A DNA stretch of 64,000 nt from Gemmatimonadaceae bacterium (lineage in GTDB: Bacteria > Gemmatimonadota > Gemmatimonadetes > Gemmatimonadales > Gemmatimonadaceae): NCBI GenBank assembly GCA_025358925.1, contig JANYHT010000030.1, forward strand, positions 1-64,000, written 5' to 3'. The notes beneath the pieces were generated by a model. The model ran no database searches, had not been told where the DNA came from, and worked only from the letters and a program-made list of their open reading frames with translations. The position numbers and the translations under genes were made by a program. Below are positions 29,394-40,018 of this stretch, piece by piece. Position 1 is the stretch's first letter, and each line of letters begins with the position of its first letter.

Positions 29394-30446
29394 TCAGCTG
29401 GTGATCGTCGAGATGTCGATCACGAAGCGATACTTCACGTCGGATTTAAGCATGCGTTCGTAGGCAACGTTGATGTCCGACGCCCTAATCAGCTCGATGT
29501 CCGAGGCAATGCCGTGTGCAGCGCAGAAGTTCAGCATCTCCTGCGTTTCTGGCAATCCACCAATGAGCGAACCGGCCAAGCGACGCCGACCCGTGATGAA
29601 CGGCCACACCGACGTTGCCGGATGCGGTACGGGAGATCCGCCCAACAGCACCAACGTGCCATCTCGCCGAAGCAGCGTGAGTTCCGCGTCGAGATCATGC
29701 GGCGCGCTCACGGTGTCGAGAATCAGGTCGAGCGAATTGCGCACGGACTTCATCGCCGCTGCGTCTTTCGAAATAACCACGGCATCCGCCCCTAAACGAC
29801 GTGCGTCGTCGGCCTTGCCCGGTGACGTGGTGAAAAGCGTCACGTGCGCGCCCATCGCATGCGCGAGCTTGACGCCCATGTGTCCAAGCCCGCCAAGTCC
29901 AACAATGCCGACGCGCTTACCCGGACCAGCTTTCCATTCGCGAAGCGGCGAATAGGTGGTGATGCCCGCGCACAGGAGTGGCGCGGCGGCGGCGGGGTCC
30001 ATGCCCTCGGGGATATGCAATACAAAACGCTCGTCTACGACGATGGCGCTGGAGTAGCCACCTTGCGTTGGCTTTCCCGATTGCTTCTCGATGCCGCCGT
30101 ACGTACCGGTCGATCCTTTCTCACAGTACTGCTCCAGCCCCTGTGCGCACGACGGGCAGTCTTGGCAGCTATCGACCAAACATCCCACACCGACCAGTTG
30201 TCCGGCTGTAAACCCCTTCACGTCGGCACCCGTGGCCACGACGCGGCCGACAATTTCGTGGCCGGGCACCTGCGGGAAGACAATCGCGCCCCATTCGTTG
30301 CGCACGGTGTGCAAGTCAGAGTGGCACACGCCACAATAAAGGATTTTGATCTGCACATCGCGTGACCCCGGGGCGCGCCGTTCAAGACTCCATGGTCCGA
30401 GTGGCGATGCTGGATCGAAAGCGGCGTAGGATTGTGTCGGAATCAT
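29394..30446 (-). CDS. Zinc-dependent NAD(P) alcohol dehydrogenase (YahK/cinnamyl type)
   Basis: 350 residues. Medium-chain dehydrogenase: catalytic zinc ligands Cys41 (YCGVCHSDLHTVRNEWG), His63 and Glu64 (PGHEIVGRV). Structural zinc cysteines are 94, 97, 100 and 108 (CQDCPSCAQGLEQYC). The Rossmann motif GIVGLGGLGHMGVKLAHAMG suggests NADPH preference as in YahK and cinnamyl alcohol dehydrogenases. Reduces aldehydes to alcohols in the cytoplasm. Stands alone, next to the repeat region. Confidence 0.94.
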   Translation of the reverse strand: MIPTQSYAAFDPASPLGPWSLERRAPGSRDVQIKILYCGVCHSDLHTVRNEWGAIVFPQVPGHEIVGRVVATGADVKGFTAGQLVGVGCLVDSCQDCPSCAQGLEQYCEKGSTGTYGGIEKQSGKPTQGGYSSAIVVDERFVLHIPEGMDPAAAAPLLCAGITTYSPLREWKAGPGKRVGIVGLGGLGHMGVKLAHAMGAHVTLFTTSPGKADDARRLGADAVVISKDAAAMKSVRNSLDLILDTVSAPHDLDAELTLLRRDGTLVLLGGSPVPHPATSVWPFITGRRRLAGSLIGGLPETQEMLNFCAAHGIASDIELIRASDINVAYERMLKSDVKYRFVIDISTITS

Positions 30447-30582: not shown

Positions 30583-33500
30583 GTGACTCCATTCATGACT
30601 CGACTTCGAATTCATTCGCTGCGCGTCGGCAGCGCGGCGCTGCTCCTCGCGGGCTCCGCGTCGGCGCAGACACTCGACTCCGCCACCGTTGCTGGCTTGC
30701 GATGGCGCACCATTGGTCCGGCCAATTTCATGGGACGGTTATCCGATGTGGTCGGCATCCCCGGACCATCCAAGACTTTCTTTATTGCTGCGGCCGCAGG
30801 CGGTATTTGGAAGACGACTAATAACGGCACGACGTGGCGTCCTGTATTCGATGACAAGCGTGTGATTTCGATGGGCATGTTGGCCATTGCCCCCTCGGAT
30901 ACGAACCAAGTGTGGGCGGGTACGGGCGAGCCGAATTCGCGCAACTCGATTGAAGCGGGAGCGGGAATTTACAAGTCGTCCGATGGGGGCCTGACATGGA
31001 CGCTCAAGGGACTCGAGAAGACCGAGCACATCGGCCGCATCGTGGTGCATCCAACCAATCCAAACATCGTCTACGTCGCCGCCCTCGGAGCCGCCTGGCG
31101 TTCGAATCCAGAGCGTGGTCTATACAAGACCATCGACGGCGGGACGACGTGGCAGCTCATCAAATTCATTAGCGATAAAGCGGGCTTTGTTGATGTCGCG
31201 ATGGATCCGTCCGACCCGAACACGTTGTTCGCGGCAAGCTGGGAGCGTTTGCGCACACCGTATTCGCTGAAGAGCGGTGGACCGGGTTCGGCGTTGTGGA
31301 AGACGACGGATGCCGGCGCGACGTGGTCTGAGGTGAAGGGTGGCAATTTCCCCGCCGGTCCAAAGGGTCGTATCGGTCTCGCGATTGCGCGGAGTAATCC
31401 GAAGATGATTTACGCGCTCACTGAAGCCGCAGCACCGGAAGCGGGCGGTGGGTACACGCCGTCGCGCACGCCGCGCGATAACGGTCTGTGGCGCAGCACG
31501 GATGGTGGGGTGACGTGGACGAAGATGAGCAGCGTGAACGTGCGTCCGTTCTACTACTCACAGGTGCGGGTCGATCCGAGAAATGCCGATCGTGTCTATT
31601 TCTCGAGCACCGAACTGCAAGTCTCTGATGACGGTGGGAAGACCTCACGCAACGCGGCGCAAAATGTGCACGTCGACGATCATGGATTGTGGATTGACCC
31701 GAACGACCCCGAACGGTGGGTGATTGCCAATGACGGCGGCATTGCCTTCACATACGACAAGGGCGGCAACTTCAACCAAATGCAGAATTTGGCATTGGGT
31801 CAGTTTTACGAAGTGAGTTACGACATGGCTGTCCCGTACAACGTGTGCAGCGGCGCACAGGACAACGGCACGTGGTGTGGTCCCAGTCGTCGTCGTCAGG
31901 GAAATACCACTCTTGGTTACTGGTACACGATCGCGGGCGGCGACGGCTTCTATGCCGCGCAGGACCCGACGGATCCGAGCATTGTGTACGGCGAGTCGCA
32001 GGGCGGCAACGCGTCGCGCTTAAATCTGAAAAGCGGCGAACGTTTGCAGTTTGTGAAACCATCGTGGCAACCGCAGTACAAGTCGTGGGAAGATTCGATC
32101 GCGGTCGTGCGTGGCGATCCGCTCGTCCCGGCAACGAAAGACATGAATGGCAAGATGGCCGCGTTTCGTGCGATGCAGAAGAAAGACTCGATGGATCTTT
32201 CGCTGCGCTTCAATTGGAATGCGCCGTTCATAATCTCGCCGCACAACCCGTCGGTGATTTACTTCGCCGGCAATCGCGTGCTCAAGTCGGTGAAGAAGGG
32301 CGAAGACTTTGCGCTCATTTCTCCCGACATGTCGAAGAAGTTAGACGCGAAGATCGACACGTCGATTCGGCTGACCGGTGGCATTACGCTCGATGCGACT
32401 GGTGCAGAAACGTACGGCACTGTGGTGGCGCTCGAAGAGAGCCCCATTCGTCCGGGTCTGGTATTTGCCGGCACCGACGATGGCAATATTTGGAAGACGT
32501 CCAACGACGGTGCCACGTGGGAGAATCTCGCGTCGAAGTTCACGCTGCCAAACAATGGCGAGGTGTACACCGCGCGCATTGAAGCATCAGCGTTCGACAC
32601 CGCCACGTTTTATGTCGCGTTCGACAATCATCGGTGGGGCGATTTTAAACCGTATCTGTTTGTGACGACGGACGGCGGCAAGAACTTTCGCTCACTCTCG
32701 AACAACTTGCCGAAAGATGGTCCGGGCGATCAGATCCACGTCATTCGTGAGAGTGCACGCAATCGCGATCTCCTGTTCGTTGGCACGTCGATCGGCGTAT
32801 ATGCGTCGATTGATCGTGGGAAGACATGGACAAAGTTCACCACGAACTTTCCCAGTGTACCGGTATACGATTTGCAAATCCATCCGCGCGATCACGAGCT
32901 AATTGCGGCCACACACGGACGCAGTTTATGGATCGTGGATATTTTGCCCCTTGAGCAGATGACGGCGAAAAATGCGGCCGCGACGGTCGTGCTCTTCGAT
33001 CCAAAGCCAGCGTTTCAATGGGGCGAAGCACCAACGGCAGGCGCTGCCGGTAACGGCAACGGTCAAGCATTCTTCAGCACGCCCAATCCAACCTACGGTG
33101 CGCTCATTACGTATCGCGTGACTGGCGCAGGCGGTGGACAAGCGCGCGTGAGCATTGTCGATGCGTCGGGCGACACGCTGCAAACGTTGAACGGGCCGGG
33201 CACGCCGGGCACGCACAGTCTCACGTGGAACTATCAGATCACGCGCGCTGCGGCGCCGCGCGAGCCGCTGTCGTCGAGTGAACGCCGCGACAGCATTCTG
33301 CGGGTCGTGCGCGGACCCGTGGTGCTGGATTCGCTCACCAAGGCCAAGTACGACAGCACGGCGCTCGCATTGGCGAAACAATTGCTTGCGCCGCCCATTC
33401 CGGGTGCTGCGGTAGGCTTAGGTGGTCGAGGTGGTGGTGGTGGTGGCGGCGGACGTGGTGGCGCGAATGCCAACTGCGAACGTCCACTCTCACAGTGGGA

Positions 33501-33924
33501 ACCGTTCTGTGCGCGTCCCGCGGAAGCCGCAGCGCGTGGCGGACCGGGCACACCTGGTGCTATCGCTGGTGAAGGTGCGTCACCGGCCGATCTTGCGGCG
33601 CTGTTTGGTGGACGTGGCGGTGGTGCCGCCGGCAATCCCGCCGTCGTCAAGATTTTTCAAATCATCGGCATTCCAATACCGAATCCGATTGGTGGTGGTC
33701 GCGGCGGCGGTGGTGGCGGATTTGGTGGCGGCCGAGGGAATGCAGCAACAACGGGCGACTACGGCGTGGTACTGACAGTGAATGGCACGACGCTGAAGAA
33801 GAAGTTGCGCGTAGAGAATGTTGGTGCGGGCGAAGCCGGTTCGCCGTTTGGTCCGGCGAGTGGTGATGACGACGACCGCACGGCGAAAGCCGCGAAGACC
33901 ACCAAGGCGGCGAAGCAGCGGTAG
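30583..33924 (+). CDS. Exported BNR/sortilin (VPS10-like) propeller protein with Gly/Arg-rich tail
   Basis: 1113 residues from GTG 30583; ATG 30595 is also possible. Signal peptide ends at GSASAQ. Residues ~25-800 hold repeated BNR/Asp-box units such as GGIWKTTNNGTTWRPVF, GIYKSSDGGLTWTLKG, GLYKTIDGGTTWQLI and VYASIDRGKTWTKF, which build one or two large beta-propellers as in sortilin/VPS10 and xyloglucanase-like proteins. Residues ~945-1065 are a low-complexity Gly/Arg-rich region broken by a short ordered insert with two cysteines (NCERPLSQWEPFCARP). The C-terminus is lysine-rich. Exported; function not established for this family in Gemmatimonadota. Confidence 0.9.
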   Translation: MTPFMTRLRIHSLRVGSAALLLAGSASAQTLDSATVAGLRWRTIGPANFMGRLSDVVGIPGPSKTFFIAAAAGGIWKTTNNGTTWRPVFDDKRVISMGMLAIAPSDTNQVWAGTGEPNSRNSIEAGAGIYKSSDGGLTWTLKGLEKTEHIGRIVVHPTNPNIVYVAALGAAWRSNPERGLYKTIDGGTTWQLIKFISDKAGFVDVAMDPSDPNTLFAASWERLRTPYSLKSGGPGSALWKTTDAGATWSEVKGGNFPAGPKGRIGLAIARSNPKMIYALTEAAAPEAGGGYTPSRTPRDNGLWRSTDGGVTWTKMSSVNVRPFYYSQVRVDPRNADRVYFSSTELQVSDDGGKTSRNAAQNVHVDDHGLWIDPNDPERWVIANDGGIAFTYDKGGNFNQMQNLALGQFYEVSYDMAVPYNVCSGAQDNGTWCGPSRRRQGNTTLGYWYTIAGGDGFYAAQDPTDPSIVYGESQGGNASRLNLKSGERLQFVKPSWQPQYKSWEDSIAVVRGDPLVPATKDMNGKMAAFRAMQKKDSMDLSLRFNWNAPFIISPHNPSVIYFAGNRVLKSVKKGEDFALISPDMSKKLDAKIDTSIRLTGGITLDATGAETYGTVVALEESPIRPGLVFAGTDDGNIWKTSNDGATWENLASKFTLPNNGEVYTARIEASAFDTATFYVAFDNHRWGDFKPYLFVTTDGGKNFRSLSNNLPKDGPGDQIHVIRESARNRDLLFVGTSIGVYASIDRGKTWTKFTTNFPSVPVYDLQIHPRDHELIAATHGRSLWIVDILPLEQMTAKNAAATVVLFDPKPAFQWGEAPTAGAAGNGNGQAFFSTPNPTYGALITYRVTGAGGGQARVSIVDASGDTLQTLNGPGTPGTHSLTWNYQITRAAAPREPLSSSERRDSILRVVRGPVVLDSLTKAKYDSTALALAKQLLAPPIPGAAVGLGGRGGGGGGGGRGGANANCERPLSQWEPFCARPAEAAARGGPGTPGAIAGEGASPADLAALFGGRGGGAAGNPAVVKIFQIIGIPIPNPIGGGRGGGGGGFGGGRGNAATTGDYGVVLTVNGTTLKKKLRVENVGAGEAGSPFGPASGDDDDRTAKAAKTTKAAKQR

Positions 33925-37347: not shown

Positions 37348-37524
37348 ATGCAAAACGGACGACGCATCGCCGATCGACTGAGGCGCGCACACAGCGGGCC
37401 GATGTGGCACGGGCCTGCAGTGGGAGAGCTGCTCGTTGGCGCGGTGGGCGCGATGCCTCACGACGTGATTGAACACACCTCCTATCACGGTGGGCAGATC
37501 GCGCTACTCAAACGGGCGCTGTGA
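37348..37524 (+). pseudogene. DinB-family remnant with a large internal deletion
   Basis: 58 codons with a good ribosome site (GAGAGG) at ATG 37348. The first part (IADRLRRAHSGPMWHGPAVG) matches the N-terminal helix of DinB/YfiT-like proteins. The last part (DVIEHTSYHGGQIALLKRAL) matches their C-terminal metal-binding helix. About 90 residues normally between them, including the other metal-ligand histidines, are absent. The frame is intact and its TGA overlaps the next ATG (TGATG), so it could still be translated and couple to the fusion gene, but cannot form the usual four-helix fold. Confidence 0.6.
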
Positions 37525-38891
37525 TGGAACTGTTCTCTGATGTGTGGGCGCAGGCGTTGCAAAGCGCGCTCCGAGCAAGCGAGTCGTACCAACATGCGGC
37601 GCGTGGTTGGGAAGGTGCCGTAGTCCTCGACTGGAGCGACGCTCCATCACGCGCGTCGACCAACGACTGTGGTGTGTACCTTGATCTGTGGCACGGCGAT
37701 TGTCGTGTTGCGCGCGTGGCCACAAGCGCTGACTACGCAAGCTCGCGCTATGTATTGTCCGCGGACATGGCGTCATGGCTCACGGTGTTGGAAGGAAGAA
37801 TGGCTCCAACAACGGCAATTTTGCGCGGTAAGATTAAGCTCAAACGCGGAAGCTTAGGCGGCCTGATGCCGCACGTAAGCGCAGCGACCGAGCTGGTGCG
37901 CGTGGCGCAGACGGTGAGTCGCGACGTGTACGGCGCGACGGAGCCAAACAAGGATATTGCTGCGCCGAACGTAAACATCCGCGTAACAGAAGCCAAGACA
38001 CAACGCGCTCCATTACAGAGCACGAGTGCGATCGGTATTCGCTTCAACCTGTTTCCCATGCGCCTGTGGGAGAAAGCGAAACGGCTTGGCATCTGGAATC
38101 CAGCAGATATTGATTTTTCGCAAGATCGCATGGACTGGCAACGTCTTGCGCCAGACGAGCAGGATATGCTGCTGCGACTCACATCGTTGTTTCAAGCGGG
38201 CGAAGAAAGTGTCACGCTCGAGATACTTCCGCTGCTCGATGTGATTGCGCGCGAAGGCCGGCTCGAAGAGCAACTGTATCTCACAAGTTTTTTGTGGGAA
38301 GAAGCAAAACATGTCGAGGCGTTTCGCCGGTTTTTCGACCACGTTGCGGAAGTGACCGGTGATCTGACGCACTATCACTCAACAAGCTACCGACAGCTGT
38401 TTACCGACGAGCTGCCGGCAGCGATGGGTCGGTTACGCACGGACCGTTCACCGATTGCGCAGGCGCGCGCGTCCGTGACGTACAACATGATTGTCGAAGG
38501 AGTGCTAGCTGAAACGGGCTATCACGTTTACCATCGTGTGTTGGTCGAGCGCGGCATTATGCCGGGAATGCAGCGCGTCGCGGCGCTGCTCAAAGCCGAT
38601 GAGTCACGACATCTCGCCTACGGCATTTTCTTGCTGTCGCGTCTTGTCGTGGAGCATGGCGATCCCGTGTGGCAGGCCATTTCGTCGCGTATGGACGAGC
38701 TTTTGCCGGGCGCCATACAAATTATCAACGAAGCGTTCGCTGCATATCCTGTTGATCACCGTCCGTTCAACCTCGAACCCGAAGTGTTTGTGCAATTTGC
38801 GATGACGCAATTTCAACGTCGATTCGATCGTATTGAGCGCGCTCGTCGCCAATCGATCCATGATGTGCATGCCCTTGAGGCGATGGAGTAA
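37524..38891 (+). CDS. SCP2-like domain fused to R2-like ligand-binding oxidase (R2lox)
   Basis: 455 residues from ATG 37524 (TGATG overlap with the preceding frame). Residues 1-130 resemble SCP2-type sterol/lipid-carrier domains (VYLDLWHGDCRVARV, YVLSADMASWLTVLEG, AILRGKIKLKRGSLGGLMP). After a ~30-residue linker, residues ~165-440 form a full R2lox. All six metal ligands of the Mn/Fe site are present: E227, E260, H263, E325, E360 and H363. So are V230 and Y320, the pair that forms the Val-Tyr ether crosslink in Mycobacterium Rv0233. R2lox proteins bind a long-chain fatty acid and are distinct from ribonucleotide reductase R2. Residue numbers are my count. Confidence 0.88.
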   Translation: MELFSDVWAQALQSALRASESYQHAARGWEGAVVLDWSDAPSRASTNDCGVYLDLWHGDCRVARVATSADYASSRYVLSADMASWLTVLEGRMAPTTAILRGKIKLKRGSLGGLMPHVSAATELVRVAQTVSRDVYGATEPNKDIAAPNVNIRVTEAKTQRAPLQSTSAIGIRFNLFPMRLWEKAKRLGIWNPADIDFSQDRMDWQRLAPDEQDMLLRLTSLFQAGEESVTLEILPLLDVIAREGRLEEQLYLTSFLWEEAKHVEAFRRFFDHVAEVTGDLTHYHSTSYRQLFTDELPAAMGRLRTDRSPIAQARASVTYNMIVEGVLAETGYHVYHRVLVERGIMPGMQRVAALLKADESRHLAYGIFLLSRLVVEHGDPVWQAISSRMDELLPGAIQIINEAFAAYPVDHRPFNLEPEVFVQFAMTQFQRRFDRIERARRQSIHDVHALEAME

Positions 38892-38894
38892 CCC

Positions 38895-39431
38895 GTGCAC
38901 GAATATCGGTTCCAAGCGACGCCAGAAACAGTCGATGCTCTCCGTCGCCTTCGCCGCGCGTGGGCGGCATTGTTTATCTCTGAACGCGCCATCGACATAC
39001 GACTTGTCGACGGCACGGCGGTTCGTATTGAGGTAGAAGCCGCAGACATCGAAGATAAATTCGAAGCGTTTCGTATTAACGCGTGCGTGCAAGCAGGCGC
39101 CGATGTCGGCATGGAAGACGTGGTTGCGTTCGCGAAGGGCGGCAACGACATCGTCCTGTTTAGTGGCGTCACGTGGAGCGAGCCAGGTGCCGAAGTTGTC
39201 GGTATTGAATTGCAACCTGGCGCCGTGATGCACTTCAGCGGCCATCCGGGACAACTCTCGGAGACGGCAGAAGTGGTGTGTATTACCACCGACGCATTCG
39301 TGGTTGCGTCGTCGATCGGTGCTGGCCTGTTGGTGCGCACTGGCCTCAAGCCCAACACGCTCCAAGTTGTGCGTGATCGTGAGACGATCACTGCGTTTCT
39401 GTTTGAGCGCGGATACCAGAGCGACGCGTGA
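38895..39431 (+). CDS. Conserved hypothetical protein downstream of the SCP2-R2lox gene
   Basis: 178 residues from GTG 38895, with a GGAG ribosome site inside the end of the upstream gene. No signal peptide or membrane helix. Alternating short strands (AIDIRLVDGTAVRIEVEAAD, IVLFSGVTWSEPGAEVVGIE, GAVMHFSGHPGQLSETAEVV) suggest a mostly beta protein. No family recognised. Three bases downstream of the SCP2-R2lox gene and overlapping the HhH gene, so likely part of the same unit. Confidence 0.6.
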   Translation: MHEYRFQATPETVDALRRLRRAWAALFISERAIDIRLVDGTAVRIEVEAADIEDKFEAFRINACVQAGADVGMEDVVAFAKGGNDIVLFSGVTWSEPGAEVVGIELQPGAVMHFSGHPGQLSETAEVVCITTDAFVVASSIGAGLLVRTGLKPNTLQVVRDRETITAFLFERGYQSDA

Positions 39432-40018
39432 ACAGTGCGCTGTGGCTGTCGCTGGACAAACACGATTGGCACGCCGCATTGGCGTCGTATTCCATCGTGA
39501 TCGCACGCCAAGGTGTAGCACGATTGCCCACGCTCGACGCGTGGTACACTGACCAGCTTCCGCGCGCCATCGCATCACGAACGGTCCCGCACATCACGCA
39601 CGACGAACTCGTGCAGCTTACCGAATGGAAAATGGCGCGTGGGGTTTGGCGCGCGCCAAACTTGGTATTGGTGAGAAGCAATGCGCCGGATGTTGTTGAG
39701 GACGTCACCACATTGGCGTTCGCCAGAATCCCGCACCCAACGGCGCCTGTAGCGAAGATCGCGGAGTTAAAAGGCGTCGGCCCTGCAACCGCCTCCGCCG
39801 CCGTGGCCGCATTTGCACCGCAATACTATCCATTTTTCGACGAAATCGTCGCCGCACAGGTTACCGGACTTGACGCGGTCGCATGGACGCTCGGCTTCTA
39901 TGGTCGCTACGCGACGCGGCTGCGCGAGCGTGCGATTTCGCTGGGCACAGACTGGACGCCGACGATGGTGGAACGCGCACTATGGTCGTACGCGGGCGGT
40001 AAGGGTGGCCGCACGTGA
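39428..40018 (+). CDS. Helix-hairpin-helix protein related to DNA glycosylases
   Basis: 196 residues from GTG 39428 overlapping the upstream stop. The core resembles the HhH-GPD region: TEWKMARGVWRAPNLVLV, then AELKGVGPATASAAVAAFAP as the hairpin and YPFFDEIVAAQVTGL. A catalytic Asp in the usual place cannot be assigned with certainty (the FFDE acidic pair is a candidate). Similar uncharacterised proteins exist in fungi and plants. DNA binding is likely, enzymatic activity uncertain. Confidence 0.65.
   Translation: MNSALWLSLDKHDWHAALASYSIVIARQGVARLPTLDAWYTDQLPRAIASRTVPHITHDELVQLTEWKMARGVWRAPNLVLVRSNAPDVVEDVTTLAFARIPHPTAPVAKIAELKGVGPATASAAVAAFAPQYYPFFDEIVAAQVTGLDAVAWTLGFYGRYATRLRERAISLGTDWTPTMVERALWSYAGGKGGRT

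Follow-up and report, generated by a model that had tools for sequence, protein, structure and literature searches.

An SCP2-type lipid-carrier domain fused to an R2-like ligand-binding oxidase in Gemmatimonadota, Acidobacteriota and Chloroflexota

The R2-like ligand-binding oxidase (R2lox) is a manganese/iron oxidase whose natural role has been disputed since its discovery; the fatty acid in the R2lox crystal could be an artefact of expression. In G. kaustophilus, GkR2loxI lies in an alkane cluster (GK2771-GK2774) together with alcohol dehydrogenase (ADH), aldehyde dehydrogenase (ALDH) and beta-oxidation genes, and GkR2loxI lysate depletes C10-C22 alkanes (PMC10867098, 2024). The E202A/H205A mutant shows a loss of just 11-21 percentage points (PMC10867098). 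An earlier, sequence-only reading of the DNA described here had called the real substrate of R2lox unknown; the published alkane loss qualifies that statement, although the activity is weak and the effect of the mutation modest.

Proteins of the sterol carrier protein 2 (SCP2) type have been placed beside hydroxylases in another pathway. The SCP2 domain of UbiJ binds hydrophobic ubiquinone intermediates that are handled by hydroxylases, and ubiT, which also encodes an SCP2 protein, is fused to the hydroxylase gene ubiU in Zymomonas (PMC6747719). Both families are known, and an alkane role of R2lox has been published; what is new in this report is the domain architecture that joins them and their recurrent genomic partnership. 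In the open literature, our searches turned up no publication that connects SCP2 with R2lox, while subscription R2lox papers could mention the pairing. The earlier suggestion of a new architecture holds to that extent, but other genomes carry the fusion too.

The fused gene, its domains and its neighbors

The window is a stretch of 64,000 nucleotides from a Gemmatimonadaceae bacterium (assembly GCA_025358925.1, contig JANYHT010000030.1, positions 1 to 64,000). The SCP2-R2lox fusion gene occupies 37524..38891 on its forward strand, from an ATG at 37524 to a stop at 38889-38891, and encodes 455 amino acids with 0 internal stops over 455 codons. An upstream open frame of 58 codons, with no Pfam match, begins at ATG 37348, and its stop shares nucleotides with the fusion's start codon in a TGATG on the forward strand (37522..37526); this overlap may couple the translation of the fusion gene to that of the upstream frame. 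The genome (4 Mb) has one SCP2 match and one R2lox match above cut-off, both of them within the fusion gene.

Residues 1-132 (37524..37919, forward strand) form the SCP2-type lipid-carrier domain. The Pfam profile PF02036, whose cut-off of 21.3 bits lies above the scores of some relatives, spans residues 15-107 with 25.9 bits for the whole protein and 28.3 bits for the N-terminal part alone. The domain matches the T. thermophilus SCP2 protein TT1886 (1wfr/2cx7) end to end (phmmer, E about 2e-29), and the corresponding part of the predicted model has the SCP2 fold, with a target TM of 0.89 and an rmsd of 2.3 to 2cx7 (Foldseek). C60 (37701-37703), the cysteine of a GxC motif, is kept in 49 of the 51 SCP2 rows of our alignment and in TT1886.

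The R2lox domain comprises residues 167-455 (38022..38888, forward strand). It scores 399.7 bits over residues 167-451 against the NCBIfam R2-like ligand-binding oxidase model NF006202 (cut-off 315), Pfam Ribonuc_red_sm spans residues 189-403, and the R2lox structure 3ee4 matches residues 166-448 (phmmer, E 8e-71). The R2lox fold is evident from the comparison of the model with 3ee4, both by Foldseek (target TM 0.94) and by VIA (Z 39.6, rmsd 1.5, 287 residues aligned). A class I RNR small subunit was considered and rejected, the best RNR-beta model reaching 48.3 bits against a cut-off of 237.

Conservation was assessed in a 92-row alignment, 63 rows of which cover R2lox and 51 SCP2. All six metal ligands are present and invariant in 63/63 rows: E227 (38202..38204), E260 and H263 in an EEAKH motif (38301..38312), E325 (38496..38498), and E360 and H363 in a DESRH motif (38601..38612), all on the forward strand. 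The same holds for V230 (38211..38213) and Y320 (38481..38483) on that strand, the pair predicted to form the ether crosslink. Y333 is likewise invariant in the R2lox rows, and we take it to be the conserved channel tyrosine (Y175 of GkR2loxI). The sequence-only reading had described a single unbroken frame at this place, about 130 N-terminal residues of SCP2 type, and a complete R2lox with six metal ligands and the Val230/Tyr320 pair. All of these survive scrutiny, including the SCP2 similarity, which a profile search might have failed to find.

Between the domains lies a linker, residues 133-166 (37920..38021, forward strand), which is unconserved and at its start extends the last helix of SCP2. 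The structure prediction that had been proposed as a check, by AlphaFold2, models SCP2 and R2lox as two domains with confidence (mean pLDDT 91.3, pTM 0.85) and residues 144-156 between them as disordered; Foldseek assigns the two separately, R2lox to 3ee4 and SCP2 to 2cx7. The linkers of fused relatives measure 28-55 residues and are rich in Pro, Ala, Ser and Val, with no conserved sequence. Because pTM is 0.85 for the window protein and 0.74 for a Chloroflexota fusion, a fixed docking of SCP2 on R2lox is not established.

Several neighbors deserve mention. Two small genes lie directly 3' of the fusion, at 38895-39431 (after a gap of 3 nt) and 39428-40018 (overlapping its predecessor by 4 nt); neither has a Pfam match, and no homologues were found near other fused genes. 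One kilobase upstream, on the same strand, is an NADPH-dependent FMN reductase-like gene (PF03358, 35960-36505), a possible electron donor, which is not conserved near other fusions. When the surroundings of the fused genes were compared for a shared operon, no neighbor family recurred beyond near relatives. An ADH gene of the window (29394-30446) was rejected as a member of the dehydrogenase cassettes described below: it is 7 kb off and on the other strand, and it is unmatched to the cassette-type ADH (tblastn, E<1e-20). Also rejected as a syntenic partner was a VPS10/BNR-like neighbor of 1109 amino acids (30595-33924); since about a dozen of its homologues exist in the window's genome, those seen near SCP2 or R2lox elsewhere are likely background.

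Recurrence of the fusion and of separate gene pairs

R2lox loci were scanned by profile in one genome per species, and the best 80 were taken. A fusion was called at these loci when profile searches placed both domains in one stop-to-stop frame; at very GC-rich loci, genes were placed by profile and tblastn matches only. Eighteen of the best 80 loci are fused, and they come from Gemmatimonadota, Acidobacteriota (Thermoanaerobaculia and others) and Chloroflexota (Roseiflexaceae and Thermoflexus). Among the 148 genomes of a family-level sample, the same unbroken fusion occurs in five besides the window's, at 54-62% identity; a phylum-level sample contributed another genome from the window's genus, and two from different families at 48-49% identity. 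Altogether, 23 distinct fused proteins occur in these three phyla, which answers the count that the earlier reading had put forward as a check.

The chance that the halves are separate genes, joined by an assembly error or a fortuitous read-through, is negligible. Several relatives are in fact unfused, with gaps of 2-131 nt, and one missed stop could join such a pair. Nonetheless, the fused frame appears in independent assemblies from three phyla, at 45-62% identity and with linkers of 28-55 residues; these in-frame relatives exclude the missed stop or frameshift near 37950-38000 on which the fusion might have foundered. With 23 distinct fused proteins in three phyla, the fusion is not an assembly error. 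It is real.

The fused state changes repeatedly in our trees. With fusion and fission events counted alike, a quick tree of 113 R2lox domains requires 7 changes of the fused label, and a careful tree of 72 domains requires 6 (bootstrap range 6-7), at least 4 of them forced by well-supported branches. None of the 200 bootstrap trees of the careful set groups the fused rows into a single clade. In the quick tree, one Acidobacteriota fusion is nested within a supported clade of split pairs.

Split neighboring genes are about as common as fusions. SCP2 of this subfamily is found at 33 of the best 80 R2lox loci, fused in 18 and upstream in 15. Where the SCP2 gene is separate, it stops no more than about 150 nt before R2lox at 11 loci (Acidobacteriota, a Bacteroidota MAG, Ignavibacteriota, a Marinimicrobia MAG and one unclassified) and is 1.2-1.9 kb upstream at 4 (Deinococcales and Bacillota). 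Without exception, the 33 SCP2 matches lie on the 5' side of R2lox and share its strand, which would have a chance of about 1e-20 if position and strand were free and relatedness were ignored. Further, SCP2 is no more than 13 kb from R2lox in all 15 R2lox genomes of the family-level sample; in 6 it is fused and in 8 it lies within 4 kb. Nine genomes of that sample carry another R2lox lineage, a diverged one of about 35% identity, whose SCP2 gene is separate, within 4 kb in 8 of the nine and with gaps down to 2-5 nt; the search found just one such SCP2 gene in these genomes. This second lineage (L037-L046, Gemmatimonadota of the window's family) keeps all ligands and the Val/Tyr pair, and an LPG_synthase_TM membrane protein lies upstream in some of its loci.

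The association is not universal. In the quick tree, 61 of 113 R2lox domains are without a nearby SCP2 of this subfamily, and many genomes of the family- and phylum-level samples have SCP2 without R2lox; therefore, neither protein needs the other everywhere. A stand-alone SCP2 gene in a genome of the window's genus (L040:1554-1976) is about 52% identical to the fused domain and has no R2lox on its 12-kb locus; either the oxidase was lost there, or the gene is an unfused relative. A correlation between SCP2 and R2lox distances (Spearman 0.42-0.47) was set aside and is not counted as evidence, because shared species history explains it.

In other phyla, the two genes belong to dehydrogenase cassettes. 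The order SCP2, zinc ADH, R2lox, ALDH occurs in three Thermus genomes, in Alicyclobacillaceae and at five other Bacillota loci. The Thermus cassettes are compact (L184:2628-6482, L185:2450-6304 and L186:2556-6411), the R2lox frame of the last being split in two; further cassettes are found at L119:4448-8383, L144 and L274-L277 (Bacillota). Two Deinococcales have SCP2-ADH-R2lox, and in one of them an ALDH follows about 4 kb further on. Annotated Rhodococcus plasmids carry an NDMA-dependent ADH, R2lox, an NAD(P)/FAD reductase, a ferredoxin, an ALDH and an SCP2-domain protein, joined in two plasmids by a fatty acid-CoA ligase. In R. opacus B4 pROB01 (L284:6816-16858), these seven genes form an unbroken series on one strand, after which come lipid-uptake genes of the MlaE-type permease and Mce kinds. 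R2lox might draw its electrons from the reductase and ferredoxin. On the M. intracellulare plasmid pMyong1, the genes after R2lox encode a small protein whose SCP2 match is sub-threshold, an acyl-CoA ligase and an ADH.

The role of the carrier domain

We propose that SCP2 carries a hydrophobic substrate and, being tethered to R2lox, delivers it there for hydroxylation. The fusion would then be a self-contained lipid oxidase module, a reading to which we give a probability of roughly 60%. The SCP2 cavity would take up a long hydrophobic molecule, which could be an alkane, a fatty acyl or an isoprenoid-type lipid. The flexible tether would hold the loaded domain near the oxidase, so that the lipid could pass into the R2lox ligand channel, and the Mn/Fe (or Fe/Fe) site would activate O2 for its hydroxylation or another two-electron oxidation. 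In organisms with split genes, the alcohol would go on to an alcohol dehydrogenase and then to an aldehyde dehydrogenase, ending as a fatty acid. Lipid transfer, hydroxylation and the kind of compound that serves as substrate are inferred here. SCP2 probably feeds R2lox, because the two are fused or adjacent in many unrelated bacteria, often beside enzymes that would finish lipid oxidation. The same logic is seen in COQ9, whose lipid-binding fold is unrelated and which offers quinone to COQ7, a ferritin-like di-iron hydroxylase. The coupling of lipid delivery and oxidation, first suggested by the sequence-only reading, gains strong independent support from the repeated fusion in three phyla and from the order and orientation conserved when the genes are split. 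Counting against this carrier reading, many R2lox domains have no SCP2 of this subfamily nearby, many genomes have SCP2 without R2lox, the fused genes have no cassette-type ADH or ALDH near them, the published alkane activity is weak, and the Rhodococcus SCP2 belongs to a different SCP2 branch, one missed by the profile used here.

SCP2 could instead act mainly on the product side, taking the oxidised lipid from R2lox to the alcohol and aldehyde dehydrogenases or shielding it. In the cassettes SCP2 does adjoin ADH rather than R2lox, and another Thermus genome (L189) pairs a TT1886-like SCP2 with an ADH of the same type away from R2lox. The fusions, however, link SCP2 to R2lox and not to ADH, and no cassette-type ADH or ALDH was found near the fused genes; we consider a product-side role unlikely. 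It is also conceivable, but quite unlikely, that R2lox acts on a prenyl quinone or another isoprenoid lipid that the cell makes, with SCP2-R2lox serving as a biosynthetic hydroxylase rather than in hydrocarbon degradation. Such a role would resemble that of UbiJ and UbiT in quinone hydroxylation, for which the ubiT-ubiU fusion is known (PMC6747719). Against it, the ADH, ALDH and acyl-CoA ligase neighbors in Thermus, Bacillota and Rhodococcus are typical of terminal oxidation, and no quinone-like gene appears among the recurrent neighbor families at the best 80 loci.

A final alternative makes SCP2 a mere anchor of the oxidase to a membrane or lipid droplet, with no direct hand-over. The long, unconserved and disordered linker would suit an anchor, as would the unproven fixed dock (pTM 0.74 in the Chloroflexota fusion). 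Yet the SCP2 family motif is kept, including the cysteine in 49/51 rows and in TT1886, and an anchor is less likely to need it; this alternative is very unlikely.

A broader view offers itself, for which we judge the odds slightly unfavorable. A large fraction of bacterial R2lox proteins would have SCP2 as their general partner for lipid delivery; with ADH and ALDH (and, in actinobacteria, flavin reductase and ferredoxin), the pair would form an overlooked, widespread and repeatedly fused Mn/Fe-dependent pathway of terminal oxidation of lipids or alkanes.

A lipid carrier repeatedly fused to R2lox, or encoded just 5' of it, argues for a hydrophobic substrate that a protein brings to the enzyme. 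The partnership makes the question of the R2lox substrate testable. The fusions supply tractable single-chain constructs, SCP2 is the natural partner to add in assays, and the operons with R2lox name electron donors and next enzymes to try.

Comparison with known systems

UbiJ and UbiT resemble the fused domain as SCP2 proteins that serve lipid hydroxylases, with one ubiT-ubiU fusion reported, but they work with flavin monooxygenases or U32 iron-sulfur proteins rather than R2lox, and the substrate is a quinone (PMC6747719). The GK2771-GK2774 cluster of G. kaustophilus likewise has R2lox beside ALDH and ADH; there, however, R2lox stands alone, and SCP2 is unmentioned in the text of the paper (PMC10867098).

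TT1886 (1wfr, 2cx7) shares with the fused SCP2 about 42-44% identity over the whole domain, the LDLWHG-C motif and the fold, but differs as a stand-alone protein. Thermus SCP2 genes of its type sit 5' of ADH, in some genomes within the SCP2-ADH-R2lox-ALDH cassette. The solved members of the R2lox family (Rv0233/MtR2lox, 3ee4; GkR2loxI, 4hr0; SeR2lox, 7qbp; SaR2lox, 6qrz/7qbk) have the same fold as the fused oxidase (VIA Z 36-40) at 38-43% identity, and share with it the six metal ligands, the Val/Tyr crosslink pair and the channel tyrosine. Whereas those proteins are single-domain chains of 316-330 residues, the protein of the window adds an N-terminal SCP2 domain and a linker.
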